Below are positions 15,701 through 31,650 of a DNA stretch of 64,000 nucleotides, in pieces (within the stretch, counting starts at the first letter, position 1; each line of letters opens with the position of its first letter). Below the pieces are notes generated by a model. It searched no databases. It saw only the letters and a program-made list of their open reading frames with translations, and was not told the DNA's origin. This DNA comes from Escarpia spicata (lineage: Eukaryota > Annelida > Polychaeta > Sabellida > Siboglinidae). The stretch lies in contig OZ023207.1 in NCBI GenBank assembly GCA_963995525.1, positions 34,380,792 to 34,444,791 of the forward strand. Direction: 5' to 3'. Made by a program: the position numbers and the translations under genes.

Positions 15701-15706
15701 AATGTC
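15701..15706. repeat. Polinton target-site duplication, left
   Basis: AATGTC directly precedes the left inverted repeat and is repeated exactly after the right one at 31645-31650. Six base pairs is the expected size for Polinton integrase. Confidence 0.95.
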
Positions 15707-15980
15707 AGTAGAAATCAGGTGGCGGAGACCCCCGTGCAAAACGATTAATCATAAACATCAAAGGGATTTGGGGCGGAGTTGACCCCGACTTAAACTTAAA
15801 TCATTACTAATAAAAAATCACCCTACTAATAAAAAGTCCTCTTATTAGATTTTGAATCATTACTAATAAAAAGTACATCAAAGGCTTAATTACCCTTAAT
15901 TACCCTTTGATTGACAGGTACCACCCACCGCGGCACGCCGCCAGTTGTTTTATGGAGCTGCCCTCTGGTGTGCTGTATGT
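15707..15980 (+). repeat. Polinton left terminal inverted repeat
   Basis: Matches the reverse complement of about 31381-31644 from the outer AGTAG through the GGTACCACCCACCGCGGCAC block to CAGTTGTTTTATGGAGCTG. The arms differ by scattered substitutions and small indels, so they have diverged since insertion. Internally there are several ATTACTAATAAAAA words. Confidence 0.95.
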
Positions 15981-16489
15981 GTGTTTTATGTATGCTTTTT
16001 TTTCTCTAATGGCATTGAGAGCAGTAACCGTTAGATTTCTACCAGTGGTTTTGTCGTCAGCGTAAAACCACTACATAACAACTGTATAACCATTACATAA
16101 CCACTGTATAAACACCCTACGCTTATATCCGTGAAATAACCATATGTCTGACGTTGCTGAAATATGATACTGCTAGCTGCTGAGCCAGCGCGGCTGACCC
16201 TGGTGATCTTTTGTGCTAGTGAAGCGGCTGTTGCACTGGCTGGTCGTGAGTCGTGACGTCTAGATGGTGTTTTCTAGTAAGGTGCTGTATGTACAGCGTA
16301 GAGCGGCGTGGCGCGCACTATAGCGTTTAATAAACAAGGCTGCATTATTGCCGGAATTAGTCGGCGCGCGGAAAGGAGAGTGTTAGTTAGGGTACCATGG
16401 GAGAAAACAAACGAACAGACGGACAGTTATATAAGTTAATTATTTAATATAGTAAATATTTAGTAAATTAGTTCCACTCTTCTAGCTCG
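15981..16489. other. Polinton left subterminal non-coding region
   Basis: No gene is evident. AACCACT/CATAACAAC-type short repeats occur around 16040-16110. Confidence 0.5.
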
Positions 16490-16672
16490 TCATCGTCGAA
16501 TGGCGGATGTCCGTAAATAATGCTTCGTCGTCGTGACGGGGGTATAATTAAAACCACGTCGGGGCGGTTCGTTTGATGGCACAATCGGAGCGTCTTCATC
16601 ATCTGAGCTGCTGTCCTTCCACCAAGGTCGGACGAGTCGTGGAGGCCGTGCTACTCCGCGAACTGTAGCCAT
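16490..16672 (-). CDS. possible small acidic Polinton protein
   Basis: A minus-strand frame begins at ATG 16672 (MATVRGVARPP...) and runs 60 codons, with an acidic/serine patch (KDSSSDDEDAP). Just before the stop an alternative frame reads SIIYGHPPFDDDELEEWN and then stops near 16474, suggesting a one-base frameshift near the C-terminus. The region is CpG-rich and also open in other frames, so this may be chance. No known family. Confidence 0.3.
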   Translation of the reverse strand: MATVRGVARPPRLVRPWWKDSSSDDEDAPIVPSNEPPRRGFNYTPVTTTKHYLRTSAIRR

Positions 16673-16899
16673 GGCGCGCGCAGTCTTTCTCGCCTGCAAG
16701 GGCGGTGGCGTTCGCGGCCGGCTGATGCTTGGACAGGGAGCGGTAGCCCTAGCTAGCCGTATGGCGCCTCGGCCTCGGGGCGGTAGCGTGCCGGTCCGAT
16801 CGACGCTCGGGCAGGGAGCGGTGAATCGGGGAGCAAAAGATTGCGCCCTAGTGGCTGTTCGTCCCCGGGGTGGTCTGTGAATAGAGAAACAATAAACCA

Positions 16900-17815
16900 T
16901 TTTAAATACAATATTAAATAAAGGAATATATATAGTTGAGTATGGTCTGTGAATAGAAAAAAACATTAATATTAAATAAATGAATGTTTAAATAATTGCC
17001 AATGCCAGGACTCCAATCCCTTGATGTATCAGTGGCCATAGACTAGTGCTAATGAAAAGCTAAACATACGTTTGTCCTTCAAATCCGCCTAAATTGCACT
17101 AGGCTTTGCCATGGTCAGTTCATTAGTGGTGTCCCTGTTGAAAGTAGGCGCAGTCAGTTTAATTAGTTCTATCGTTATGCAAATTCAACTATATCGAATA
17201 GGGCGGCCGGGGTAGTTAGAAAAAACATTGAATAGAAAAAATAATATTAAATAAATGAATGTTTATCGGCTATATAGTTGAGTGTTTTGTTTGTTTGTTT
17301 AAAGGGTCGTGACGTACCTGGTGAATTCGTGATGCGACGTCATAGTCGTCTGTGAATTGTTGTGATGCGAGGCGTTGACATTTGCCTACGACGCCATAGT
17401 CGTCTGTGAACGGAATGTTGTTTACGATGTTGGGGCTTCTACGATCGCGTGACGCACGTCACGTAGGCAACGTTACGTAAGCCTTTACCGACCGTTTTGC
17501 GTAATGTTTAAAATCGTTTAATGAAAATCTAAATGTGTAAAAGTAAGCGTTTTATAAGACAAGCCGGGACTCTGGAATCGTGTGGTGTTGTTGTATTAGA
17601 AAATTTTACTCTAAAGAAGCGATTTTCGGTGACTGCACTGGCATGACCGATTGAGTTTTTCTATTGTTAATAACCTTGCCAGAATAGGCTGTTTTGTGGT
17701 GTACTTGTTCAGGCGCACGTGCGCTTTTCACTAGAATTGTGTAAAGCGGTAGGCTGAAAAGACTTCTGTATTCACTCGTTGTCGTTGTATTGACGTTGTT
17801 CTTCAGACTAACACG
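16900..17815. other. non-coding Polinton segment with direct repeats; upstream region of the RPA-like gene
   Basis: A direct repeat containing ATTAAATAAATGAATGTTTA occurs near 16971-16990 and 17247-17266. A second direct repeat with CATAGTCGTCTGTGAA occurs near 17340 and 17392. No gene was seen. The segment from about 17500 to 17815 should hold the promoter of the plus-strand genes, but I see no clear TATA box. Confidence 0.5.
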
Positions 17816-18561
17816 ATGGCGGACGAGTGCGCACCAAGGAAGAAACCGTTAACACCGAAGCCTGTACTCGAAGGGCGCTCCATTTCGGCTGCACAGGGCG
17901 CTGCACCATCAATCGGCACGGCGCCGCTACCGGCTGCGGGGAGCAGGCAGGGAGGAACAGAGACGGCGGCGGAAAGCGTGCCGGTACCGTCCACCAGCGC
18001 GCAGGGGGCGTCAGCAGCAGGACCGACGGCGGAGCCAGGCACGTCTGCGAGGAGCGCGCCCGTACTGGCCTTCCCGCCTGAAAGAGGCGCAGTGGTATTT
18101 GTGCCTTCGTCGGTGAGTGTGAGGACGTTGAGCGAAGCTGGAGACGGCCTCTATAAAATTGCAACGGCTGTTACTATTGAGGCAATTTCATGGCGTGATC
18201 AATGCGTGTACGAGGGGTGCACACGATGCCGTCGAAAGGTATGCCCCTCCAGAGAGGGTCCTATGATGTGTCTTTCGCACGGCGTCCAGTCCGCCACGAA
18301 GTATTATTTTTCAATGCGTATAATGATAAAGGACGGGCCTAAAGTTGAGGATGAAATGTGGCTAAGCTTATTCGACAATGCCATGTCGGAGCTCGTCGCG
18401 TATCAGGCCGACTACCTGGCCTCTTTGGATCAGGAGGAAATGCGTGACACTGTTCTGGAGCTCGTCGGCACGGTCATAGAGATCAATGTGCGTAAGGTAT
18501 CGTGGGGGGAATGCCGTCGTACATTGTGCTTGCCCTGAAGAAGAAGACAACCGATGAGTAA
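17816..18561 (+). CDS. RPA70 C-domain-like single-strand DNA-binding protein
   Basis: ATG at 17816 (ACACGATGG context) starts a protein with a low-complexity Ala/Pro/Ser N-terminus (residues 1-90) and one compact domain (about 105-225). That domain lines up with the C-terminal OB fold of replication protein A large subunit: a zinc site (EGCTRCRRKVC ... MMCLSHG), the strand YYFSMRIMIKD, WLSLFDNAMSELV, and a helix followed by GTVIEINVRK. The frame stops at 18538. In another frame the sequence continues as GGMPSYIVLALKKKTTDE to a stop at 18559-18561, which fits the last strand of the fold, so I infer a frameshift at the G-run near 18505. A role coating displaced strands during protein-primed replication, like adenovirus DBP, is inference. 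Confidence 0.75.
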
Positions 18562-18601
18562 TTGCATGTGACTAATGACGCCTTTCTTTATGCTGTAGGA
18601 A

Positions 18602-18740
18602 ATGCATCGAATACTGGACGCCATAGAAGCGATTAGTAAGGCGTGCCAAGCGAAACCTTGCCGACGCCTTCATACAGGCCCTGCTTGAAACGGCGGACGA
18701 ATATTGTGCTTTAAAAAGTACCAAGAAGAACGATGAATAA
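18602..18740 (+). pseudogene. small Polinton ORF, frameshifted
   Basis: From ATG 18602 the frame reads MHRILDAIEAISKACQAK; near 18655 it must shift to continue as LADAFIQALLETADEYCALK and end KKNDE-stop at 18738-18740. Its C-terminal KSTKKNDE resembles the KKKTTDE end inferred for the RPA-like protein, hinting at duplication. The block is preceded by a pyrimidine-rich acceptor-like sequence ending TGCTGTAG. No known family. Confidence 0.45.
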
Positions 18741-18825
18741 ATTGAGTAGAACATTGATAAAAATTCGCTTTATTTGAGTGCTGTAGGACAATCCGGAGGC
18801 GCGGGATTGCGTACTGGACAGTGTA

Positions 18826-19230
18826 ATGGAGGACGTTTTGGACATGTCGGACGAGGCCGCGCGCGACTTCGCCAAAACATTCCCGGCCGAAGCTGCGAAG
18901 CAAGTCCCCCAAGGCGAGGCACCACCGACGTACGCAAGTTTATATCCTGTAATGGAAATTTCGTCCCCGTCGACAGTGTCGGCGGAGATGCCGACGTTGC
19001 TCATAAATAAGCAACCGGCGGCCAACGCGCCGAGTGAGCTATCGATCCTCCAGCTGACTTCGACCCAGGAGAAGTTCCTGATGAGCGCATTTGCGGAATG
19101 GGTCGGAGAAGAGATACTGGTGCGCGCACGCAAAAGCTGCGGTGAGTGTGAGCCAAATGAAGGGTGCCCGTACGTGCACATGTACGGCTATCGTGCGGGG
19201 AGACCGAACCGATTCTATCCGCGCGTGTAG
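18826..19230 (+). CDS. Polinton ORF of unknown function with PPxY and Cys-rich motifs
   Basis: The frame is open from GACAAT at 18787, just after a TGCTGTAG acceptor-like site; ATG at 18826 gives 134 aa. It has an acidic N-terminus (MEDVLDMSDEAARDF), a PPTY motif of PPxY type within GEAPPTYASLYP, and a C-terminal CGECEPNEGCPYVH segment that could bind zinc. A GTGAGT donor-like site inside the last segment (19142) makes splicing to the next block possible. I recognise no family. Confidence 0.5.
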   Translation: MEDVLDMSDEAARDFAKTFPAEAAKQVPQGEAPPTYASLYPVMEISSPSTVSAEMPTLLINKQPAANAPSELSILQLTSTQEKFLMSAFAEWVGEEILVRARKSCGECEPNEGCPYVHMYGYRAGRPNRFYPRV

Positions 19231-19236
19231 GACGAA

Positions 19237-19503
19237 GTGGGCGACATAATCACGCGCTACTTTCAGCCCGTCCTGGATTCGTATTTCAGCCGATCGTTAA
19301 TACCGTGCTTTACGAGGTTCGTCATACTCCTGAAAGCTCGACTGCTGATAGTCGATCAAGATCGAGCTGCTGAAATTGCAATCGTGCAGTTCGTTTCCGA
19401 CTGGCTACTTGCCACTGATTGGCGCGACTCCATCAACAATGCCATGCTGGAGGCCGCTACTCACCATTACGTGATGCAAATGAGAGGTCTTGCTGATCTG
19501 TGA
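19237..19503 (+). CDS. Polinton ORF of unknown function
   Basis: Open from just after an acceptor-like GTGTAG at 19230; ATG at 19237 gives 88 aa ending MQMRGLADL. The predicted protein is mostly helical with a basic/hydrophobic middle (FVILLKARLLIVDQD). It is the fourth of four tandem blocks each preceded by TGTAGGA, and may be an exon of the preceding gene rather than a separate gene. No family recognised. Confidence 0.4.
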   Translation: MGDIITRYFQPVLDSYFSRSLIPCFTRFVILLKARLLIVDQDRAAEIAIVQFVSDWLLATDWRDSINNAMLEAATHHYVMQMRGLADL

Positions 19504-19504
19504 G

Positions 19505-20127
19505 ACGAACATTAGACGCTTATAATTGAACGTTGTAATCGGTTATACTTGCCTGGAACCGCTGAACATTAATTAGGAGCTGATTTGTGATTTTATACGC
19601 TTATAATTGGGTTATACTAGCCTGGAACCGCTGAACATTAATTAGGAGCGTGAAAAAACGCCTGCTTAAACGAACACTATGAACGATTGGTCGCTTAACA
19701 ACGCTATGCTGCTATACTGTTTAAATGTCGACTCTATGAAGAAAAGTCGGTTGTAGCTTTGGTCGCTTAATAAAACGTTGAAAACGTATTCTTTCTTTCT
19801 GTTTACTATCCACGATTGCTTAAAATATCCCGCATACACGTTTCGCTGCCCGTTGTTATCTCCATCGGCAACTGCTTAAAGAAAAGTCGCTTAATATTCT
19901 TCCCGCATACACGATCAGCTTAAAACGTCCCACCGCATACATCCTTGCACAGCAGCCGTTTAACTAGGAATTAGAAATGTACGTCCCGATCCCTACCGGC
20001 AGCACCTAGCTTAACCACCACCACCACCGCACGCCACTCTTTATAAGCGGTGGCGAGACACGTCCGTAGTTAATATCGTTTGCGCTGCCGACAACAAGTA
20101 AGCATTCAAATAAGCGAGCAAGCAATC
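19505..20127 (+). promoter_or_regulatory. upstream region of polymerase gene with repeated GCTTAA words
   Basis: A direct repeat of about 50 bp (GCCTGGAACCGCTGAACATT) occurs at about 19551 and 19621. From 19660 to 20015 the hexamer GCTTAA occurs about eight times, four as CGCTTAA or TGCTTAAA, together with three copies of CCGCATACA. No coding frame is present. The clustering in front of the polymerase suggests regulatory or replication sites, which is inference. Confidence 0.4.
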
Positions 20128-23100
20128 ATGCCAGTCTGCCCCACATGCGGTAGAACCGTCGAGCGTCTGGCAGATCACTCTTGCGCTAAGCCACAATGCC
20201 CGAAATGCAGTCATTATTTTAGCCGTCGCTCTGCGTTCTTGAATCATATGAGGATGTCGAAAACCAGCGGAACTGAAAAGGCGATCGAAAATGATTGCCC
20301 AAAATGCGTCCGGTCTTACTCTCGGCGCGCGAATATGTATGATGGTCCACCTAGCGATCATGACGGAACACCGCCGCCAGCGGCGCCACATGACGGTCCA
20401 TCACGTAGCGACGAAGACGACGAAGACGCGCTATCGATCGGTCTACGGCGTGTCGTGGAGGACCACTGGTCTAGCACAGAGTCGTCGGTGTCACGCGGCC
20501 CTATACATTCCCGATATAATTTCAAATTGACCGAATGTATGGACACTAGAGAACTCGAACCCCGACTAAGAGTAATGTTTGAGGCGCAAACGTGCGCGTT
20601 TAAGATAAATGTAAGTTATGCGTTTATCCTGCGCCACAAGGATTCGGGTCGCTACCGCTATTTTCATTCGTCCTGTAATTGCTGCGGCCGCCTCCTGGAA
20701 GTCCCCGCCCTCGTTGCCGACGCCCGCTCATTCGAACGCTTCCTCGACGAGGTCCGTATACGCGACGTTCTCCAGTACGTGACAGCGCAGCGGCCCGACT
20801 CGGGATGGGTCGCCGAATTGGTGACGAACGAGACCTACTTTCTGAACGCCATATTAAACCACCCTATCGGTTGCGTCGGCGGCGCGCAACTCCCCGTCTA
20901 CCTGCGCGACAACAAGGCCGTCGTCTCGCTAGTGAAAGGTCGACGAGGCGCCCCCTACGCGGATAATCTGTGCCTATTCCGTTGTCTGGCCCTGCATAAG
21001 CAGGGCCAGACAACGCTGGCCCTGCTTATGCAGGGCCAGCGTCAAACGTCTATACGACGACTACTGCAGAGCCACCGGCACGAATCCGTTCGACGGCGTC
21101 CTCCTGAACGACCTTGACCGGGTGGAGGCGGTCTTTGGCGTCAACGTGACCGCCTATCGACTGATGGAGGCCGCCAACAATACGACGGCCGCCGAATTGA
21201 TCCGTCGGTCTCTCAACGCGCACCCCACGACCCTGAATGTAAACGTATACGAAGCGCAATTTTCTTATATGCGCGACGTCTCGAAGTACACGAAGACGTA
21301 CGTATGCAGCAAGTGCGCCAAATCCCTGTGGCGGACCTCCTACGAACTACGACGTCACGAGGCGTCGTGCGATGGCGGCGTTCGCCACGTCTTTCCCGGC
21401 GGCGTCTATCACCCCACACCGTCCGTGTTTCAGCAGCTAGAGGACGAGGGCGTCTACCTGGACAATGACCTGCGCTACTATCCGTATCGGGCGACATTTG
21501 ACTTCGAATGTTACTTCGTCGATAATGAACTACCGCCGGACACCGACAAATGCCGGTGGCTAGCCAGCCACGAACTACTCAGCGTGAGCATCGCGTCGAA
21601 CGTCCCCGGCCACGAGACGGCGCGGTGCTTCGTCACAACCGGCGATTCGGCCGATCTCGCGAGGCGCTTGTTCGACGTTTTGGTGGCCGCGAGCGAAGCG
21701 GTGTGTGCGGCCGTTGTGCGACTCGGCCTTCGAAGCCCTCGGCGCGCTCGACGCCGAATGGCCGCCCCTCGGTTTTAATTCGGGCAAGTACGATTTGAAC
21801 GTCGTCAAGAAGTACTTGACCCCCCTCCTCATGACCGACGGCCGGCACACGTCGTCGGCGTTAACCATCAAACGCCAGAACAACTACATGTGCCAGACGA
21901 CGTCGACGCTCTAATTTCTAGGTATCACCAACTACCTGGCCCTCGGCGTCAGCTACGAGCGGTTTCTGAAGGCGTACGGCTGCGAGGCGACGAAGGGCTA
22001 CTTTCCCTACGAATATTTCGACATGTTGCGCAAATTGGACGACACCGAACTGCCGCCACGGGAGGCGTTCTACAGCCACCTGAAACGGGAAGGGATCTCC
22101 TCCGCGGCGTACGATGCTTGCGTGACGGCATGGCGCAACGAACGGATGACGACGTTGCGCGACTTCCTCGTGTGGTACAATAACAGAGACGTGGTGCCGT
22201 TTCTCGAGGATGTCGACAAACAGTTCGCGTTCTACTACCAGCGTCGCGTCGACATGTTCAAAGACGCCATCAGCGTACCGGGCCTAACTCTGCTGTACCT
22301 CTTCAACGATCTCCCGGCGTCGATCAACTTTACCCTGTTCAACGAACCAAATAAGGACCTGCACCGCCTCATCCAATCGCAGATCGTCGGCGGTCCCTCG
22401 ATCATCTTCGCGCGCCTTCACGAGGCCGGCGTGACCGTTCTTCGTCGCGACGCGGCGTGGCGTTGTCGTTCGATCGTCGGATTCGACGCGAACGCCTTCT
22501 ATCTATGTGCGATAATGCAACAGATGCCGACGGGCTGGTATACGCGCCGCCGCGAGGAGAATGCCTTTCGATAGGAACGCGTGCACCGCTACGGTCGTAT
22601 GGCTGTGCAGTGGCTGGCGTGGGGGCCGAACGGACGGAGGTGCGCATACGACACCAGCTTATCGTACGCGAGAAACCTATCGGAAAGTACCGGGTCGACT
22701 GCTGGTGTAGCGAGACGCGAACGGTGTACCAGTTTCAAGGCTGCTACTTCCACAGCTGCCAGAGCACGGAGGCGGCGACGAACGCCGTTAACGGTAAGCC
22801 GATGACCGAACTCTACGCAGCGACGAACGACGTTACTACCTACCTTCGCCGTTTCGTCACCGTCGTCGAAATGTGGGAATGTCGGTGGCGCGGTGGGCCT
22901 GCGGCCGGGTCACGCTGTCGACGATCTTTGAGGCCGTACGCGACGGCGCTCTGTTCGGCTTGGTAGAGGGTGATATCGCCGTCCCGGATGCGCTGCGCGA
23001 TACCTTCGCCGGGATGCAGCCTGCCTTTAAGAACGTCTACATCGGTGGTGACGATCTCAGCCCGTTCATGCTACGCTACGCGGAAGCGCACGACCTCCTG

Positions 23101-24137
23101 ACCCGTCCTCAGCGAACGCTCGAGGGAATTTTTTTTTGGCGCCAAGATCCTACTCGCGACGCCCCTACTACGGTGGTATCTGGCGCAAGGTCTCGTCGTC
23201 GACCGCGTCTACCAGGTGGTCGAGTACGTACCGATCGCGTGCTTTCGCCGCGCGACGAGAAGGCGACACCGACCCCGACAAAGCCATCATCGCCGACACG
23301 TTTAAGCTTCTCGGGAACAGTTCCTACGGGAAGTCTATAACGCGCGTCGATCTGCACCGTGAGATAAAATACTGCAAGATGGCCGGCGCCACGATGCTCT
23401 TCAACAACCGGCGCTTCCGGCAGCTCGACGTCGTCGTGCCCGACGACAACTACGAGGTGGCACTGAACAAGCGCACCGTCCGCTACGCGCAGTCTATCCA
23501 GATCGGCTACTTCGTCTACCAGTACGCGAAACTGAGGATGCTGGAATTTTATTACGACTTCATCGCCGTCTACATTCCGCGTCCTCTGTTCGAGTACTGC
23601 GAAATGGACACCGATTCAGCGTACATACCCCTTGCGGGCCGCGACGTCGACGAGCTGGTCGCGGCGTCTAAGTGCGAGCACTACTTCCGTCACCGCGGCG
23701 CCTTGCTTTCGGCCGAGTGCTGCGACGCGCACGCGGACGCGTACGTGCAATGTCGTCTCGCCGGACGCGCGTTGGACGCTGCGCACTGTAGCGCGCGACG
23801 TCGCACGTACGACAAGCGAACGCCGGGCCTCTTCAAAGAGGAATGGTCCGGCGACGGTATCATCGCGCTGTGCACCAAAACTTACTACTGTTTCGACGCC
23901 ACCGCCGGGTCAAAGTACAGCACGAAGGGCCTGAGCAAGCGCCAGAACGATATCGACAAGGACGCCTTCCTAGCCGTGCTGCGCGACCAACGGAGCGGCG
24001 TCGGCTGGAACCGCGGCTTTCAAGTAAAAGACTCCTCCGTGCTGACGTACATTCAAGAGCGCGCGGCGTTCAGCTACTTCTACGCTAAACGCTGCGTGCT
24101 CGACGACGGCGTCACCACTGCGCCCGTACTCGTATAA
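20128..24137 (+). pseudogene. PolB: Polinton protein-primed DNA polymerase B, disrupted
   Basis: The chosen start is ATG 20128. The N-terminus has Cys/His finger-like motifs (CPTCGRTVERLADHSC, CPKCSHYF). Then come a KTYVCSKCAKSLWRTSYELRRH finger, exonuclease motif I TFDFECYF (about 21490), GFNSGKYDLN (about 21775), palm motif A GFDANAFYL (about 22480), motif B LLGNSSYGKSI (about 23310), motif C MDTDSAYIP (about 23605) and KYSTKGLSKRQ (about 23915). The family copies linear genomes using a terminal protein. The reading frame is broken by hairpin insertions near 20982-21042, a shift near 21700, stops at 21912 and 22572, and shifts near 22620, 22885, 23130 (T-run) and 23265. The copy is about 1330 codons, normal for Polintons, but cannot make a full protein as written. 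Confidence 0.95.
20982..21042. repeat. two adjacent hairpins inside the polymerase gene
   Basis: The first hairpin has 14-bp perfect arms (TTGTCTGGCCCTGC) and an ATAA loop. The second has 13-bp perfect arms (ACGCTGGCCCTGC) and a TTAT loop. The 22-bp core of one is the exact reverse complement of the other. The polymerase frame changes across this spot. Confidence 0.9.
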
Positions 24138-24271
24138 CTAGTCGGCGGCCACCCCTAGGGGTAGGGCCCTCCCTAGGGGTAGGTAGTAGGGCGCCTATAA
24201 GGCGCCCCCTAGTGGTAGGGACTATGTACTTATGTACTAATAAAATACAGTACGAAACAACATGGGCGTTT
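24138..24271. terminator. junction between convergent Polinton genes, palindromes and polyA signal
   Basis: The polymerase and protease genes converge here. The stretch holds CCCCTAGGGGTAGGG twice, the palindrome GGCGCCTATAAGGCGCC (about 24190-24206) and a plus-strand AATAAA (24239-24244). It plausibly provides 3' ends for both transcription units. Confidence 0.5.
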
Positions 24272-24762
24272 TCATCGTTTTTTATTTGCATGCAGTAAGC
24301 GAATAGCTGTAAGCGATAATATAGTTGAATGCGGTTTTAGCCAGTCGTTAACCACCCTATCGGGGCCGAATAGATCCTGGAATCCTTTTAACGGCATACC
24401 GCGGCATCGCAAGAGAAGGTAGGCGACGCAGTATTGTCCGCATACGTTAGATATCACGCTGTGCAGTCTCTTGTCGTTGTACGCCGACGAGTCGCCGCAG
24501 TTACGGCGAAGGAAGGCGCGAAAGTCGTCGTGCAGGGGCGGCAGGCCGTACGAATCGAAGTAGTCGCCTCGTCCTTCGACGTCCACGTAGAGAGCTACCC
24601 AGTGCTCCCCCGGTACGCCCCCGTCGTCTGTGTTGCACACGAAGGCCGTCGGGAGCGCGGTGAGCCGTTTTATCGGTAGCCCGTCTTTCGCCTGACATCG
24701 ACGACGATGTGTTTAGCGAACGGGTCGAAGGTCAGGCGGCGCATCAGTTGAAACGTGTCCAT
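24272..24762 (-). pseudogene. adenovirus-type cysteine protease, frameshifted
   Basis: ATG at 24762 starts MDTFQLMRRLTFDPFAKH; the frame then breaks near 24690 and continues as DGLPIKRL and beyond. The catalytic region has GEHWVALYVD (His), GDYFDSYGLPP, and VCGQYCVAYLL (nucleophile Cys), in the order of adenain-like proteases that process virion proteins. The start lies 4 nt from the capsid gene stop, as in a tightly packed transcription unit. With the frameshift the active-site part lacks its N-terminus. Confidence 0.9.
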
Positions 24763-24766
24763 GTTA

Positions 24767-25927
24767 CTAGTCGTACACGATGTTTCGGTTCTTGTCGATC
24801 TCCAGCACCTTCTCGAACTCCCCGTACACGACGACGTTCTTGGTTTGGGTTTGGGGTTGTACGAAGTGTAGCTCCGCGCGTAGGTCTCCGCTACGCGCGA
24901 GGTTGAAATGGTCGCCCTCGCAACAGTCGGGCGTCAGGTCGAAACCGAAGATGGTGTAGCCGTTACCGACGTAGAGCGCAATGAAGTTTATGTCGTTGTG
25001 CTTCGCGTTGAACAGGTTTTTAACGTAGGTCCCGTTATAGGCGTCGTTGTCGATTAGCGCCAGGAACACGCGTTTCGGGAGGACGCCCAGGTAGACGTTC
25101 TCGTGCGTGCGAGACATCGTGCCCTGCGGTATCGAGAACACCTTGCAGTCGACTCGACGTAGCGGGTACTTGGCCGCCCCCCGCGCCAACGCTTTAATGT
25201 GACCGAGCTGGACGGACGGGTTCACCTTAGCTTTTCGCAATTGCAGGTAGGTCTCCAGCAGCGAAATTTTCCACTCCGGGTCGGCTTGCGCGCCTATGAG
25301 CGCGAAGGCGTCCTTCGCGCGCACCAGTCGTGCCTTCACGTCGACGCCGTTCAGTAGGTACCGGTTTTGTATGAACACGTCGACGTGCAGGCGTCCCATC
25401 ATCTCCACCTCGCGACTGTCCCGCGTGAGGGCGCGCCGCTGCGCGTACCCGTCGTTAGAATTCGCGGTCGCCTCCATCAACCCGGTGGTGTCTTTGTACC
25501 ACAGTCCCCACTGGAGCTGCGTCCTTTTCGCGTCGGTACCGTAAATCAGCAGGTTTTCGATGTAGGCCCGGTACGGATACGTATTGGTCGACGGCGTCAC
25601 GAGCGTACCGTGCAGAGATTCGTCGACTTGACTGAACATCGAATGCAGAACATTTTTGACCGGGGCCACGTCGGAGTCGTGCGGGAGATCGGAACCGTCC
25701 CCCTGGATCAGTTTGAAGCGGACGTACAGTCTAATACTCGCCAGGTCCGTATAGTCATCTCCCGATCCCGGGATGAGGAACTCGATAGTCCCGCCGGCGT
25801 CGAGGGCCGTCAGCGGCTGGTGATCGACCCACTGACCGCTCTCGATACTCGTCTGCGTCATCGGCAAGGTGAGTAGCTCCAGCTCGCTCTTTACACCTTC
25901 GCACGACTGCCGATGCACGAACGCCAT
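24767..25927 (-). CDS. Polinton major capsid protein (hexon-like)
   Basis: An intact 386-aa frame from ATG 25927. It belongs to the Polinton family often annotated as 'F54H12.2-like', predicted to be a double jelly-roll capsid protein. Recognisable blocks are TLPMTQTSIESGQWVDHQPL near the N-terminus, FSQVDESLHGTLVTPSTNTY, YPLRRVDCKVFSIPQG, and a C-terminal GFDLTPDCCEG and NVVVYGEFEKVLEIDKNRN. It seems short for the family between the FIALYVGN and GYTIFGF blocks (around residue 325), suggesting an internal deletion; that is from memory and unverified. It is one of the few core genes without a stop or frameshift. Confidence 0.88.
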   Translation of the reverse strand: MAFVHRQSCEGVKSELELLTLPMTQTSIESGQWVDHQPLTALDAGGTIEFLIPGSGDDYTDLASIRLYVRFKLIQGDGSDLPHDSDVAPVKNVLHSMFSQVDESLHGTLVTPSTNTYPYRAYIENLLIYGTDAKRTQLQWGLWYKDTTGLMEATANSNDGYAQRRALTRDSREVEMMGRLHVDVFIQNRYLLNGVDVKARLVRAKDAFALIGAQADPEWKISLLETYLQLRKAKVNPSVQLGHIKALARGAAKYPLRRVDCKVFSIPQGTMSRTHENVYLGVLPKRVFLALIDNDAYNGTYVKNLFNAKHNDINFIALYVGNGYTIFGFDLTPDCCEGDHFNLARSGDLRAELHFVQPQTQTKNVVVYGEFEKVLEIDKNRNIVYD

Positions 25928-25928
25928 T

Positions 25929-26342
25929 CTACTTCGTGAAAAATATATCCCTCGATAATGTCTGTTCCTTTCGACGCCGCCTCTTCTTACTGGATGTCAC
26001 CGCCTTACCCAGTGGCTTTATAGGTCGTCGTCGCTTTTTCTTCGGCGACGGCTTATTCAGCACTCCGTCGGGAAGGTCGGCGCCGGCCTCTTTCGCGCGT
26101 CGTTTTACAGACTGTTTCAAATTCTTGCCGGCAACGACGTCCTGCGCCACGCGTACACCCGTGTTAAGGGCGCGCTTTCCCAACGCCAAGGCGCCTCTCT
26201 TGATAAGCGGCATGGCGCTTCGAAACAGGCTCCCGAAGATATTGCCCAGGCCGTGACCTCGCTGCCCTCGACCGCCGATGAAGACCGGTAGATTGCCGCC
26301 GACCTGTCGAATGTAGTAGTCCTCGTACACGTTACGTCCCAT
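25929..26342 (-). CDS. basic virion protein, adenovirus pVI/pX-like
   Basis: A 137-aa intact frame from ATG 26342 (MGRNVYEDYYIRQ). A Gly-rich amphipathic segment (GLGNIFGSLFRSAMPLIKRGA) is followed by a strongly basic tail (SPKKKRRRPIKPLGK and KKRRRRKEQ). This resembles the small Polinton/adintovirus protein compared with adenovirus membrane-lytic pVI or core pX. The gene lies between penton and major capsid with almost no spacing, so the capsid genes are probably co-expressed. Confidence 0.75.
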   Translation of the reverse strand: MGRNVYEDYYIRQVGGNLPVFIGGRGQRGHGLGNIFGSLFRSAMPLIKRGALALGKRALNTGVRVAQDVVAGKNLKQSVKRRAKEAGADLPDGVLNKPSPKKKRRRPIKPLGKAVTSSKKRRRRKEQTLSRDIFFTK

Positions 26343-26344
26343 CG

Positions 26345-27188
26345 TCAAAACAGTTTAGATTTACAGCGTCTCATGTGAAGCGTCGACACGAGTTTCCCCT
26401 GCTCGAATGGTATAGGTCGACCGATGTAGTCTCTTATATCGATCTCGACCGAATCGAATTGTCGCCGTAGGAGATGTACGTATTGGACGCGGTCGAAGGT
26501 ATTCGATACCGTGGCCCCGTTCTTGCATTGGACGGGGGTGGTTCGGAGGAGCGGGGCGAACGCGTCACCGACGACGCACAGTTCGTGGAGGTCCGTGTAC
26601 ACGTACAGGGTGTTGAGTCCACGATGCATGTCCACCGTGTGTTCTCCAACATACTCCAAGGTACACGCGACGGGATCGGTGGTGATGATGACTTCACCGA
26701 CGGCGTCCTTCAAGAGGGGGCTCGCGATGACGGTCGAATCGAAACCTAGCACGGTCTTCAGATGGCGCCCATGGGGGATGTTAAATTCGACACCCGCCGA
26801 CATATGTAGCGTCATCCGATTAGAGATCGGGCTGTCATTCAGCCGTGTCTTGACCGTTTTGGTGGTCAGCTTCGCCAGTGCCTCGTTGATTTTATTGTTC
26901 AACTCGTAGGGACCCTTGTAATGACCGTAAGGAATGTTGCCCTGTCGGTAAATCGGACTACCGTCGTCGTTGCAGTAAACCCCCAGTTCGCCCTTCTTGG
27001 AAGCCAGGTAAAAGTACGCGTCCCCGGCTCTCACGTTGTACCACGTATTCGGGTACTGTAGCGCCACCAGGCCGCATTCCCATGCGTTGCGGCAGAGACG
27101 TGATGTAGTGAGTCAACGTGTTATCGGGGTGCGCCTTCATAGACGCGTTGCTCGGTAGGGTCAGGTAAAAGTCAGACGATGCCTCCAT
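26345..27188 (-). pseudogene. Polinton penton (minor capsid) protein, frameshifted
   Basis: ATG 27188 starts MEASSDFYLTLPSNASM; after YITSLPQR the frame shifts (about 27095) and resumes as NAWECGLVALQYPNTWYNV. The C-terminal half has the family blocks LNTLYVYTDLHELCVVGD, FDRVQYVHLLRRQF and EIDIRDYIGRPIPFEQGK followed by STLHMRR. The family is a predicted single jelly-roll vertex protein. The start codon sits inside the end of the upstream membrane-protein gene (17-nt overlap). One indel is the only lesion seen. Confidence 0.85.
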
Positions 27189-27495
27189 CGCTGCGTCTCA
27201 TAGACGGACTCGGGAGTAGGTAACCGAGACAGCTACTTAACAGCGCCGTCCACAAGTTGGAGTCTCCCTGACCTCTCGTCAGATTGTATATACTCATGAC
27301 GATAACCGCGTACAGGACGACGATCTGACACAGGAAGATGATCTCGGCTTTAGGGCAGTCGTTCCCGCAGAAACGCCGCGGAACGTGTTCGCGGACGGAG
27401 GTGGTGGTAGACTCGGTAGAGTCGACGAAGTCTGTGGTTGTGGCTACGTCGACATTGAAGGAGTCTGCGGCGGCGGCTGTCTCCTCGTCGTTCAT
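27172..27495 (-). CDS. small single-pass membrane protein of Polinton
   Basis: 107 aa, intact, ATG 27495. The first ~40 residues are acidic and Ser/Thr-rich, followed by a Cys/Lys/Glu segment (CGNDCPKAEIIF), a hydrophobic helix (IIFLCQIVVLYAVIVMSIYN), and the conserved NLWTALLSSCLGYLLPSPS tail. Similar small membrane proteins lie next to the penton gene in other Polintons. Function unknown. Confidence 0.7.
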   Translation of the reverse strand: MNDEETAAAADSFNVDVATTTDFVDSTESTTTSVREHVPRRFCGNDCPKAEIIFLCQIVVLYAVIVMSIYNLTRGQGDSNLWTALLSSCLGYLLPSPSMRRSDGGIV

Positions 27496-27626
27496 CGTAG
27501 CGCCACTGCGGTCTCTTAATGCAGCACCCTCCTTTATAGTCGTCGTTGCATGCTGCTTCGTGTAGTCGCGAGCACCCCCAGTGTCGCATCCACAACATGA
27601 CGTCTACCGTCCGACGCTACGACCTC
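27496..27626. other. short spacer between integrase and membrane-protein genes
   Basis: No frame of interest. It contains a minus-strand TATAAAGG-like sequence near 27533 that could serve as a core promoter for the capsid gene set. Confidence 0.35.
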
Positions 27627-28785
27627 CTACCCTTTATAATCCAAGAGCGCCTTGGCGTCGATCCAGCTGTTGAAGGAAGCCGGGTAACCGCTCCATTTCA
27701 CGAGCACCTCCGCTCCACCCCCTTTACGACGACGCTGTAGAACGGCCTCCACACGATACAGTTTATCCTACGTGACGACTACCCGTTGCAGTTCCGGTTC
27801 GTAGAAGGAGCCGTCTAGCGGCGTCCCGGCGTCGTCGTCCAGTCGATAAACGGGCGGATCGGACTGGTGTGCCTCTACGACGGTGAAAAGTGCATCGCTC
27901 CAGTTAGCCATGTACCCTTTTTTGAACCGACCTTTCGCCTTGCTGATGCGTACGCGATCTCCCTCTCGTAGTTTCGGTTTGCTGCCACCACCACCACCAC
28001 CACCGCCGTACAACCGTTGCCATACGCTCTCCTGATTCGCGGCGTTAACGCACGCCGGTGTCGTACCGATGCTTCGATGGTAGGCGTTATTGTACGACCG
28101 TACTAGATGCGGCAACGGCTCTACGTATCGCAGCGTCTGATGTTTCGTAAAATACCGCGACATGCGCGTCTTCAACGTCCGATTGAACCGTTCCACGACA
28201 CCAGCTTTAGTCTCCTCGATATGCGTCACAAAATGGTGGACGCCGTAGTCCTTCAAGAGTTTCTGTAGGGGTCTGTTAGAAACTCCGTGCCCTTATCGGT
28301 CTGCAGCGCGTTCGGCGGTTGTTCCTCCTGCAGCAGGGTCTCGAAGGCCGCGACGAGCGCCGCGCCTGATTTACTCTTCAACGGGACGCCCGTTTCGAGA
28401 AGACGTCGATAACCGTCAACAGGAATGTTATACTGTCATTGTGTTTTTTTAGTGTAGCTACGTCGACCAAATCCGCTTGCCACTGCTGGTTTCGACCGCC
28501 TACGATAAAGCAACGTCGTTTGAAATGTCGTTTAACGGGTTTGTGCAGGGTGTACGTATACTGTGCCGCTAGACACCGCTTGACGATCGGTTTGCCTACT
28601 ACGGCCGCCCCCCTGTGCAACGCGTCGACGCCGCCGTAACTGCCCGCCTGTTTTGGATCGTAATAGACGCGCTTCAGGCGGTCGTCATCGTGTCGGCTTT
28701 TTTGAGTTCGACGCTTTCGTTGCGCACGACGAGGACGCCCGGACACGACGACGACGACGAACGATCGACGACGACTAATATACAC
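27627..28785 (-). pseudogene. INT: Polinton retroviral-type integrase with chromodomain, disrupted
   Basis: The N-terminal part has RVYYDPKQAGSYGGVDALHR. The catalytic triad is visible: Asp in QWQADLVDVATL, Asp in QTDKGTEF, Glu in KAGVVERFNRTLK. A Gly run (eight glycines) and an SH3-like SKPKLREGDRVRISKAKGRF segment follow, then a chromodomain (EAVLQRRRKGG, EVLVKWSGYP, FNSWIDAKALL) ending at a stop at 27627. Lesions are frameshifts near 28385 and 28265 and an in-frame TAG at 27768-27770 just before the chromodomain. The exact start is unclear; the frame opens with GTG at 28785. The enzyme makes the 6-bp staggered insertion seen at the element ends. Confidence 0.93.
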
Positions 28786-28850
28786 ATATAGACAGCGACA
28801 GCCGCTGCGACGATGACGAGGATGACGACTACCGACCGTCGAGGCGTCAT
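28674..28850 (-). CDS. possible short N-terminal transmembrane ORF overlapping integrase start
   Basis: From ATG 28850 a 58-codon frame reads MTPRRSVVVILVIVAAAVAVYM, a clear signal-anchor-like helix, then a Ser/Asp-rich linker, and stops at 28674 inside the integrase N-terminus in another frame. An A6 run lies where the two frames could be joined by one indel. It may be an independent small membrane protein or the original integrase N-terminus. Confidence 0.35.
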   Translation of the reverse strand: MTPRRSVVVILVIVAAAVAVYMCILVVVDRSSSSSCPGVLVVRNESVELKKADTMTTA

Positions 28851-28938
28851 TGCGGTAAGTGACTCGGACGGCAATGTTTCATCCGCATTAACAGGTCTCC
28901 CACGCCGCCTCCAAGACTCTGCTACGACGACTACGTTT

Positions 28939-29651
28939 TCAACCCGGCGTCACCTCTTTTTCAGCTAGCCGCCGCTGCTGCTGCACCCACGCCGCCCCGA
29001 GACGGCGACTGCGTTTACTACCCGGCGTCGCCTCCTCTTCTAGCTGCTTCGGCCGCCGCTGCTGCATGTACAACGCTCGATACCGGGGGTTACCGACGAA
29101 TTCCGTAGGGATGTTCAGACCCCTCATACGCTCCCCGAACGCTTTCCACCCTACAGGTGGCGCCATCTTCTTTCTCGTTCGCATGAGGTCGTTCACGAGA
29201 TCAACCATGTTACTGCCCAAAAAATTTGACCGTCGTACACGAACTCGCCGCGGTCGTTCAATAGACACGACGGATCGGTTTTCATTTTCGCGATAACGAG
29301 GCTTGCTTTCCCTTTCAGAGTTTTCGGCACGCTGTCCACGATCTCGCGTTCTATAGCGTTCAAGGGTGCCGCCTCCTCCTCAACCGGTGTCGTCGTCGTC
29401 TCGTTGTTCACCACCGACACGCGTACTGGCTGCGCCGCTCGAGCCGCCTCTTTTGCGATACTCAGCAGTTGATTGTACGACACCACCTTATCGCGTTCGG
29501 ATCAATCCGACCGGTCTACAACATCCTTCATGTCGCTCTCCAGGCTACTCGTTGCGCGTGAAAGGATCGTGCTCGGCGGCTGGTCGATGAGCGGTAGGAG
29601 GCTCTCCACCAACCGCGGGTCGACCAACGCCATCTTCTTCGCGTGCTTCAT
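28939..29651 (-). pseudogene. conserved Polinton ORF of unknown function, disrupted
   Basis: ATG 29651 starts MKHAKKMALVDPRLVESLLP, followed by an in-frame TGA (near 29508), then KVVSYNQLLSIAKEA, a Thr/Glu linker, LNDRGEFVYDGQIF, a frameshift at an A/T run near 29220, and GSNMVDLVNDLMRTRKKM with GWKAFGERMRGLN. The same order of blocks is familiar from other Polintons, next to integrase. It has no known function. The start is 3 nt from the previous gene's stop. Confidence 0.7.
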
Positions 29652-29653
29652 CT

Positions 29654-29997
29654 TCACCCGATAACCTGTCTGAGCAGGGGGAGAAGGACGGTGCTCGCTA
29701 ACGGTGCTAGCAACGCCGTCAGAAGACCTCCCGCTCCCGTTTGCAGGATGGCCCGCTTCTGTTTGACGGGTACTTTTTTGCCGCTAGCTTATGCAAGTGG
29801 TTCCTGTATTTTAACAGTACTCTTTTCTGCTTCGATAGTTCCTCGTTCCCTTTCAGAATGTTGTACGCGCAATGGCACAGACTACAGATGAGGTCGGAGT
29901 CCGCGCGGGCGATTACGGCTTTTCGCAGCTGGACGTTCCTCTTATATATATTCAGCATCTGCAAGGCCAGGATATGTCTCTTCACGCGGTCCGTCAT
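29654..29997 (-). pseudogene. conserved small Polinton ORF, frameshifted
   Basis: ATG 29997 (MTDRVKRHILALQML). A helical, basic N-terminal part with CSLCHCAYNIL is followed by LLKYRNHLHKLAAKK. At a homopolymer near 29778 the frame shifts to KQKRAILQTGAGGLLTALLA, ending hydrophobic and stopping at 29654. This arrangement (basic coil plus hydrophobic tail) is seen in other Polintons. Function unknown. Confidence 0.65.
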
Positions 29998-30037
29998 CCT
30001 TAAAACGAATGATACGCGCAGTGACGACTCTCTCTTT

Positions 30038-30649
30038 TTATACTCGCTTCCTTACGTAGACGTACTGAAGGCGATCGTCGAGAAAAATGCACGTGCGCAG
30101 GCGCATGTCTTCCTCTGTTTCCTGTTTCAGGTCTACGAGGAGATAACCGTACGCTGCTGACGTGGCGTCTTTGAAGGCCTCTATCATGTAGTTGAACTTG
30201 CCCGGATACATCTGTTTTGCTAGGTGACCTACTTGTCCGGCGTCCCGGGGGCTCTTGAATAGCACCATGTATTTGTGCGGTTTTCTTTCCCTTTTGGAAA
30301 AATATTCTGCAGCAGTTGTACGACGGACGTATTACAGTGATGGCTTTTTTTTTGTAAACACGGTCGTGACCCTGCTATCTGTTTCCTCCATGAGATCATC
30401 GAGTACTAGAAGCGTCCTCGTTTTGGCGTCTAAACGCTTCGGATCCGGTAGGCCGTCTACGAATTATATTTTGGATGGCATAGAGGCATAGGCGGATTGC
30501 CACTGGCCGTAACACCACAGGAATTTCTCCGGCGGCGGCTCGATCATAGTGGTAGCGTGCTGTATTAGGCGAGCGACGAAAGTAGTCTTACCGCACCCCG
30601 TAGGGCCGGCCACTATACACCTAAAAGGATGCTTCAACGGCGCGCACAT
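30038..30649 (-). pseudogene. ATP: Polinton genome-packaging ATPase (FtsK/HerA type), disrupted
   Basis: ATG at 30649 starts MCAPLKHPFRC, leading to Walker A VAGPTGCGKTTFV. The frame has a TAA after YASMPSKI (near 30471), continues FVDGLPDPKRL, then Walker B TRTLLVLDDLMEETDS. A further shift occurs at an A9 run (near 30350) and one near 30270, after which VLFKSPRDAGQVGHLAKQMYP and the C-terminal helix region follow. The family (A32-like) pumps DNA into capsids. Confidence 0.92.
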
Positions 30650-30700
30650 ATTCACGACTGGCGCGTGCGGCAACGAGCGATGACTTTTTATTCGTTTCTT

Positions 30701-31129
30701 CTATACTCGTCGCGCACCTCCATCAATAATTTGCCCCTCTCTGCCTCCGTGGCCAATACCCCAGAAGGCTTCGTACGACGGCACCCACTCCACCAATTCG
30801 GCTTTCCCTGTAGCCAATAGGGCGTCTTTCAACTTCTTTGACCCTCCGAACTTGTACTTCAACAGGCTCTTCATGCACTCGACCCTAACGGCGTACCATT
30901 CGGCGTCCGTTCTCCTTTTCTCGATTCTGTGACTTCGGCGTTTTGCAATATAGCCAGACCACGACTCTTTGATGTACTCGGCGCCTTTGTCGTCTTCGTG
31001 AAACATCGCTCTTCTAAAATGATAAGCGTGCTCTACGGACCTGAAGCCCCGACCGTATGCCACCACTCGACACGGATACCAGTTCGACAGGAACGACGCC
31101 GACCCGCGAAAATGTATAGGAGGCGTCAT
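30701..31129 (-). CDS. NADAR/YbiA-family protein (DUF1768), Polinton accessory gene
   Basis: An intact 142-aa frame from ATG 31129. It matches the NADAR (YbiA) fold along its length: FRGSASFLSNWYPCRV at the N-terminus, the GRGFRSVEHAYHFRRAM block with the conserved Glu, an IKESWSGYIAKRRSHRI helix, WYAVRVECMKSLLKYKF, LLATGKAELVEWVP and the closing FWGIG. NADAR proteins act on NAD/ADP-ribose-type substrates, and members remove ADP-ribose from modified guanine or hydrolyse riboflavin intermediates. It is the outermost right gene, next to the ATPase, and is undamaged while most core genes are broken. A counter-defence role against ADP-ribosylation is inference. Confidence 0.88.
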   Translation of the reverse strand: MTPPIHFRGSASFLSNWYPCRVVAYGRGFRSVEHAYHFRRAMFHEDDKGAEYIKESWSGYIAKRRSHRIEKRRTDAEWYAVRVECMKSLLKYKFGGSKKLKDALLATGKAELVEWVPSYEAFWGIGHGGREGQIIDGGARRV

Positions 31130-31169
31130 ACTGCTGCCACTCTGCTACTGTGTACCCCGCCTCTCGTCC

Positions 31170-31390
31170 GCACTATATATATATATATATATACACACAC
31201 TAACAATATCGCTAGAGGACTAAGAGCACACATAACCGCTAGAGGATACGTAAGTACTTAGAACAGATGGCGGACTGGCAGAAAGTATGTCCTAACAATG
31301 CCACTAGAGGGCAGATAACACACATACACCACACATAGGTCCTAACAATGCCACTAGTGGGCAGATAGCACACATATGCCGCTAGAGAGC
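31170..31390. repeat. right subterminal tandem repeats with CTCF-like motifs
   Basis: After a (TA)n/(CA)n tract (about 31175-31200), a 50-bp unit is repeated with CCTAACAATGCCACTAG at 31291 and 31341. Related CGCTAGAGGA words lie at about 31210 and 31237 and a CCGCTAGAGAGCA at 31379. CCACTAGAGGGCA (31301-31313) fits the CTCF core consensus CCASYAGRKGGCR at every position. Confidence 0.75.
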
Positions 31391-31644
31391 AGCTCCATAA
31401 AACAACTGGCGGCGTGCCGCGGTGGGTGGTACCTGTCACTCAAAGGGTAATTACGCCTTTGATGTACTTTTTATTAGTAATGATTCAAAATCTTATAACA
31501 GGACTTTTTATTAGTAATGTGATTTTTTATTAGTAATGATTTAAGTTTGAGTCGGGGTCAACTCCGCCCCAAATCGCTTTGATGTTCCTTTGATGTTTAT
31601 GATTACTCGTTTTGCACGGGGGTCTCCACCACCTGATTACTACT
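31381..31644 (-). repeat. Polinton right terminal inverted repeat
   Basis: Reverse-complement partner of the left repeat, ending ...ATTACTACT at 31644. It carries the same CCGCGGTGGGTGGTACC and TTGCACGGGGGTCTCC blocks. Confidence 0.95.
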
Positions 31645-31650
31645 AATGTC
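31645..31650. repeat. Polinton target-site duplication, right
   Basis: AATGTC, identical to 15701-15706. Confidence 0.95.

Follow-up and report, generated by a model that had tools for sequence, protein, structure and literature searches.

A NADAR-family gene beside the packaging ATPase of Polintons in the annelid Escarpia spicata, with a possible role in counter-defence

Why would a Polinton carry a gene for an enzyme that acts on ADP-ribose? The question is raised by a 64,000-nucleotide stretch of the E. spicata genome (the window; assembly GCA_963995525.1, contig OZ023207.1, positions 34,380,792 to 34,444,791 of the forward strand), in which a Polinton encodes a protein of the NADAR family at its right-hand end. 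A first-pass annotation, made from the sequence alone, had described the gene as intact and had suggested a part in counter-defence. NADARs that have been assayed remove ADP-ribose from guanine (PMC11125620, PMC11543638). Here we report that the gene is almost certainly of the NADAR/YbiA type and belongs, as a decayed copy, to a Polinton lineage in which it stands directly before the packaging ATPase, and we weigh what such an enzyme might do for its carrier.

The minus-strand open reading frame (ORF) at 30701–31129 comprises 142 codons (142 amino acids). It matches the Pfam NADAR profile PF08719 at 66.7 bits (E 3.8e-18), above the curated cutoff of 35.1, and by sequence it finds two solved structures, the oomycete (Phytophthora) enzyme 8bau (E 9.9e-12) and Escherichia coli YbiA, 2b3w (E 1.9e-7). 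A third PDB match is an unrelated fusion protein (E 3.6e-4), with no stretch passing on its own. With a profile and two solved relatives in agreement, the assignment to the NADAR domain is correct and no chance hit. The NADAR fold that the first-pass annotation had read from the SNWYPC, SVEHAY, TGKAELVE and FWGIG blocks, all of which are present, is thereby confirmed; the absence of a profile match, which would have spoken against it, did not materialize. The YbiA subfamily is defined by a catalytic Glu in the last strand (PMC11125620, PMC11543638). This residue is Glu, not Asp or His, in the window copy. It is also Glu in 53 of the 54 distinct stop-free copies described below and Lys in the remaining one, so that the Asp that marks the DarT1-linked BC4488 subfamily was not found.

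The gene lies inside an element of 15,938 bp (15707–31644) bounded by terminal inverted repeats of about 276 bp. The left repeat (15707–15981, plus strand) opens with AGTAGA and the right one (31369–31644, minus strand) closes with ACTACT; the arms are 89–95% complementary, and both flanks carry the six bases AATGTC as a target-site duplication (15701–15706 and 31645–31650). Vertebrate Mavericks have (AGT)2//(ACT)2 ends (PMC8097293), from which the left end differs by one mismatch. The element thus has the terminal repeats, AGT/ACT-type ends and 6-bp duplication of a Polinton. NADAR is the outermost right-hand gene seen, as first described, with a gap of 240 bp to the right terminal repeat. 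Because the repeats and the duplication enclose it, the gene belongs to the Polinton; a host-derived insertion was rejected on this ground and on its place beside the ATPase in most other copies. These boundaries are those of the window element alone, as blastn found terminal-repeat similarity in only 21 of 70 loci.

Directly downstream of NADAR lies a gene for an FtsK/A32-type packaging ATPase (30041–30700, minus strand), broken by stops and frame changes with its Walker A motif, GPTGCGKT, kept. Its N-terminal piece matches Adeno_IVa2 above cutoff (E 1.5e-5), and it is 72% identical to the ATPase of a relative elsewhere in the genome, locus L020, which scores above cutoff for both Pox_A32 and Adeno_IVa2. 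It is the only core gene of the Polinton with profile matches above cutoff.

A search of the genome (1.06 Gb in 1097 contigs) returned 1796 NADAR candidates, of which the best 150 were scored; the lineage occupies at least 150 loci, and likely many more. By hand count, 31 of the 150 scored copies have stops within the match and 119 are stop-free. Bacterial contamination was rejected as a source, the 150 matches being spread over 19 contigs, some of chromosome size. We fetched 90 of the 150 loci (L001–L070 and L077–L096) and four larger overlapping stretches of an array on contig C10 (L071–L074). The 90 are not a random sample but comprise the 30 best matches, 40 copies chosen as stop-free and 20 chosen as stop-bearing. 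In 85 of them an ATPase lies downstream of NADAR on the same strand, separated from it by −9 to 51 bp (median 39). The five exceptions are L085, whose ATPase has no start, L095, with none in the fetched stretch, and L041, L059 and L060, which lie in the C10 array. The expectation that other Polintons would carry the same gene next to the ATPase therefore holds within this genome, and NADAR occupies the same place in related elements, not the window element alone.

The C10 array (G000:C10:15.16-15.83 Mb; L041, L059, L060 and L071–L074) holds 20 of the 150 scored copies, and no ATPase was found beside NADAR in the six of these that were read. In L071, two NADAR copies with about 8 kb between them lie in long inverted arms (844 and 781 nt, 94–96% complementary) that flank 12-bp and 65-bp tandem repeats, and the five array rows included in the trees nest among Polinton copies. 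At L002, a second NADAR frame (positions 969–1415 of that locus), 70% identical to that of L020 and bearing a stop, directly precedes the main one, forming a tandem pair. Identical or near-identical NADAR and ATPase proteins recur on different chromosomes (L016–L027 and others), a sign of a recent burst.

The pairing extends beyond the best-scoring NADARs. An ATPase search of the genome gave 2136 candidates, of which 150 were scored; by coordinates, 56 of these 150 places are preceded by one of the 150 scored NADARs, and 51 of the 56 rank among the best 56 ATPase places. The upstream stretches of six of the other 94 were read and all six contain a NADAR, two of them about 81–82% like that of L055 and four about 82–88% like a database protein, P0002; two look decayed (L097, which is partial, and L098, with two stops). 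The notion of subfamilies without NADAR was rejected accordingly, each of the six ATPase places read from the 94 having a more distant one. With the C10 array set aside, the pair is present at 85 of 87 NADAR loci and six of six ATPase loci read, and NADAR is therefore not an oddity of one subfamily.

In a FastTree phylogeny (LG), 85 genome copies and the database proteins P0001–P0003 group in a single clade (support 0.91) that divides deeply into two branches; support values within the tree are modest to poor, in places below 0.5. Over 69 loci, NADAR distances co-vary with ATPase distances (Mantel r 0.48, none of 2000 permutations as high). Given the single clade with its two deep branches and these co-varying distances, NADAR was probably taken up once, before the subfamilies split, and then descended jointly with the ATPase. 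The tree set consists mostly of short metagenome proteins, with eukaryotic and giant-virus NADARs hardly represented, and does not place the donor.

The relatives also permitted the comparison of nonsynonymous with synonymous substitution rates (dN/dS) that the first-pass annotation had proposed. For 56 distinct copies without stops, which gave 1536 usable pairs (pairs at a dS of 0.02 or less fall below the bins), the Nei–Gojobori ratio fell from 0.55 through 0.45, 0.38 and 0.27 to 0.19 in bins of rising dS. The two shifted frames gave about 1: 1.1–1.3 in the bins with most pairs and 0.85–0.91 in the sparse top bin. Simulated under neutrality, the frame stayed free of stops in 13% of trials when 10% of it had changed, in 5% at a change of 15% and in 2% at 20%. 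Open copies lie at a median pair distance of 19% from one another, a figure that, like the 119 stop-free copies of 150, leans to well-kept copies by sampling. Judged from these substitution patterns, the NADAR family evolved under purifying selection in the past.

The window copy itself is not the intact, full-length gene first described. After GREGQ it departs from the family and ends in IIDGGARRV, nine codons off the ending of its relatives (...GREGQNMLGKLxMEVRxExRRNE). The closest database protein, P0001 (82% identity over 137 residues), continues ...GREGQNMLGKLVMEVREELRRNE, and in the window the family C terminus, GKLLMEVRDEYRRNE, is found at 30691–30735 on the minus strand, in a frame that differs from that of the NADAR ORF. 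That ending is in frame in 25 of the 26 other alignment rows, which were picked mostly as full-length; the exception is L071, of the C10 array. In an AlphaFold2 model of the L020 protein it forms the last helix (residues 135–150), which is lost in the window copy and complete in the lineage in general. Consistent with damage, the window copy scores 67.8 against NCBIfam TIGR02464, below the cutoff of 73.7, whereas L020 scores 95.7. It alone has Arg at the active-site position K50 (oomycete enzyme numbering), where 53 of 54 distinct stop-free copies have Lys; the matching K95R change in the E. coli C7 enzyme works in vitro and fails to rescue cells (PMC11543638). The shifted ending, with the loss of the last helix, shows that this copy is not intact; the ATPase next door is broken as well. 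The first-pass annotation had further remarked that NADAR stays open while other genes have decayed. It is still an ORF, but so are 24767–25927 and 26345–27067; the persistence of the window ORF is by itself no evidence of selection, which comes from the family.

What might the undamaged enzyme do? The AlphaFold2 model of L020, built from 126 sequences, has the NADAR fold with a mean predicted local-distance difference test score (pLDDT) of 94.9; earlier modelling of this type with close relatives only had reached 43, and the deeper alignment was used instead. Structural alignment gives 30–33% identity to the solved proteins 2b3w and 8bau. With identification and mechanism taken together, we give about even credence to a YbiA-type de-ADP-ribosylase that is kept for counter-defence and acts on ADP-ribosyl-guanine, the most likely substrate given that guanosine-ADP-ribose is hydrolysed by every NADAR assayed in PMC11125620. 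In such a scheme, the Polinton lineage would have taken up NADAR once, kept it directly before the packaging ATPase and spread it through the genome. During a virus-like phase, ADP-ribose would be bound in the NADAR cleft by Glu33, Lys40 (Arg40 in the window copy), Glu114 and Trp123, and the enzyme would hydrolyse the ADP-ribose–guanine bond. Marks set by host or rival-virus ADP-ribosyltransferases would thus be cleared off the replicating DNA or RNA of the element, and replication and packaging could continue. Counter-defence is a plausible fit to the active site kept across these sequences.

Several observations weigh against this reading. At a dS of 0.02 or less, the ratio of means for NADAR is 1.09 (15 pairs from 59 copies, 53% of them below 1), as expected of freely decaying recent insertions and without support for selection there. 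The ATPase is under stronger constraint than NADAR (dN/dS 0.09–0.23 in 25 distinct open copies), and the NADAR ratios come from pairs that are not independent and from a set of 90 fetched copies of which 40 were selected as stop-free. Copies with stops give 0.28–0.55 among themselves and 0.45 against the nearest open copy, compared with 0.47 for open copies. Because they resemble open copies in this way, we read the selection as having acted before insertion and not in the present copies. Two contacts of 8bau, Tyr84 (adenine stacking) and Arg79 (phosphate), are not kept, their places being taken mostly by Gly, Asp or Asn and by Tyr, Ser or Trp, respectively; with both replaced in the lineage, the substrate may differ from that of the oomycete enzyme. 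Finally, the scanned pieces of the window element gave no Pfam match to an ADP-ribosyltransferase, with decayed and unnamed ORFs remaining.

The changed contacts on the adenine side of the cleft favour what is the main rival to the guanine model: the same gene and carrier, with NADAR destroying small immune signals derived from ADP-ribose or nicotinamide adenine dinucleotide (cyclic or linear, for example those made by TIR proteins). PMC9503650 points the same way in suggesting that viral NADARs, those of phages above all, might favour soluble ADP-ribose derivatives. The same paper favours macromolecular targets for animal RNA viruses, however, and the uniform hydrolysis of guanosine-ADP-ribose in the assays cited above also speaks for a guanine substrate. 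We regard small-signal cleavage as possible but unlikely.

That TIGR02464, the best NCBIfam match of L020 and one above cutoff, is named for an N-glycosidase of riboflavin biosynthesis intermediates raises a further alternative, in which the enzyme would cleave such intermediates or another base–sugar bond to metabolic benefit and not in counter-defence. The residues of the ADP-ribose site are mostly kept, though, and we take TIGR02464 to cover YbiA-type NADARs generally. Riboflavin synthesis is not known in animals, so the pathway substrate would be lacking in the host. We consider this explanation improbable.

A captured gene hitch-hiking without function for the element would account for the stops in 31 of the 150 scored copies, for the weaker constraint relative to the ATPase and the ratio near 1 in the closest pairs, and for an array holding 20 of the 150 copies in which the six read have no ATPase beside them. 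It sits poorly with long retention, with dN/dS well below 1 in every bin above a dS of 0.02, with near-invariant catalytic residues and with a NADAR standing next to the ATPase in two sublineages that diverged deeply. Neutral decay, moreover, would leave the frame open in 13% of cases at 10% change and in 2% at 20%, as against 119 stop-free copies of 150 and a median pair distance of 19% among open ones. We judge a mere passenger very improbable. Least probable of all is an antitoxin-like gene for addiction or self-protection that reverses a transferase of its own Polinton or of a competing element: DarT1–NADAR and YarT–YbiA pairs exist in bacteria (PMC11543638, PMC11125620), but the scanned pieces of the window element, a single element with ORFs still unnamed, held no such transferase match.

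Removal of ADP-ribose from guanine in counter-defence remains our preferred reading, and these bacterial pairs, of the same enzyme family, provide the model for its mechanism; they differ from the Polinton gene in their transferase partner, none being seen beside NADAR in the pieces scanned. Within the YbiA/NADAR superfamily (PF08719; 2b3w and 8bau), the Polinton as carrier and the replacement of Arg79 and Tyr84 set the present proteins apart. NADARs of giant viruses, iridoviruses, ascoviruses, nidoviruses and phages (PMC9503650) are alike in being viral accessory enzymes, and Marseillevirus, Ingleside virus and phage proteins are among the best 50 BFVD matches listed. Phage NADARs are all less than 60% identical to the Polinton protein (553 of 50,697 records match, the best listed at 46.7%). 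In size, terminal repeats, (ACT)2-type end and 6-bp duplication, as in its ATPase, its presumed integrase and polymerase regions and in having accessory genes near the ends, the element resembles vertebrate Polintons/Mavericks (PMC8097293). Unlike in those, the ATPase here is at the right end, its strand is opposite to that of the polymerase, and NADAR separates it from the terminal repeat.

The first-pass annotation knew of no such gene in Polintons, and the searches agree as far as they reach. No report joining NADAR and Polinton was found in the open-access literature, the scope of which excludes subscription journals and preprint servers. The main text of the viral NADAR survey PMC9503650 contains none of the terms polinton, maverick, adintovir- or virophage, and the word NADAR is absent from the available text of PMC8097293. 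As far as can be told, this Polinton lineage has in NADAR an accessory gene not described before. Of the 120 NADARs listed from 2171 in the protein database, P0001–P0003 alone are at least 58% identical to the query, on contigs of at most about 1.1 kb. The best 120 of 2562 ATPase relatives are 58–70% identical (one 85%), and by our own reading the longest contig is at least 100 kb for 55 of the 120. With few close NADARs against many close ATPases, the database hints that NADAR is special to the Polintons of this host and near relatives, a contrast that its cover of animal genomes may bias. In IMG/VR, no relatives of the ATPase, the capsid ORF or the ATPase profile were confirmed, and the NADAR profile search gave two distant loci, L075, phage-like in its ORFs by our reading, and L076, which was placed in the tree.

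Three database entries bear on how such genes are labelled. P0003, assigned to a Chromatiales bacterium bin, is an 802-base contig that nests among the Polinton copies of this genome and is likely to be mobile-element DNA of an animal that was binned with a bacterium. P0143 and P0159, Polinton-type ATPases 64–65% identical to ours, are attributed in the database to a bacterial endosymbiont of the tubeworm Escarpia laminata and are probably host DNA in an endosymbiont bin.

The rest of the window element is decayed or named with less certainty. At the left, a 261-amino-acid open stretch (17753–18535, plus strand) matches the replication factor-A C-terminal domain, of the single-strand DNA-binding type (PF08646, E 1.2e-9, above cutoff), a gene not known from the Polinton core set. 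The polymerase, integrase, protease and capsid genes were named only from their order, their motifs and weak matches; we partly presume the first two labels, and the protease, major capsid and penton labels are our assumption. A DNA polymerase B region, decayed and spread over several frames (20074–24134, plus strand), matches PF03175 below cutoff (E 0.06) and has a C2H2 finger at its N-terminal end (zf-C2H2, E 1.4e-5). On the minus strand, an open stretch (24275–24712) has the place and motifs of an adenain-type protease and no profile match, a 386-amino-acid ORF (24767–25927) and a 240-amino-acid ORF (26345–27067) occupy the places of the major capsid and minor capsid (penton) proteins without a profile match above cutoff, and a decayed region in several frames (27771–28878) has an IS481-type transposase match below cutoff (E 1.4e-4) in the place of the integrase. 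The PDB was of no help with these regions: one polymerase piece had no match, the matches of the integrase piece included no integrase, and the best match of the capsid ORF was a designed protein (E 2.6e-7), with no stretch passing alone. Rfam gave no match at the gathering score and the tRNA search none. From 16 to 31 kb, the G+C content in 1-kb bins is 0.46–0.60, against mostly lower surroundings of 0.29–0.49. To the left of the Polinton, an ORF at 12406–12657 (plus strand) with the motif DIGAEINVLP, which we take to be aspartic-protease-like, is likely a fragment of a long terminal repeat retroelement.

A gene for the kind of enzyme that strips ADP-ribose from DNA bases, set beside a packaging gene, suggests a weapon against host defence. 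Tentatively, and with the balance against it, Polintons of this animal lineage may carry a dedicated eraser of guanine ADP-ribosylation. If they do, such an eraser would imply an antiviral defence by DNA ADP-ribosylation in invertebrates, for which clam enzymes of the CARP-1 type, which modify N2 of guanine, would be ready candidates (DNA ADP-ribosylation at guanine N2 is reported from six edible clams, PMC11209040), and it would help to explain the NADAR genes seemingly held by scattered animal genomes. The lineage also carries a warning that NADAR genes recorded under animals, and some recorded under bacterial bins as P0003 is, may belong to mobile elements. The role of animal NADARs has been called unclear (PMC11125620); a NADAR-bearing Polinton lineage makes that role testable, and with it the action of nucleic acid ADP-ribosylation against DNA viruses in animals.
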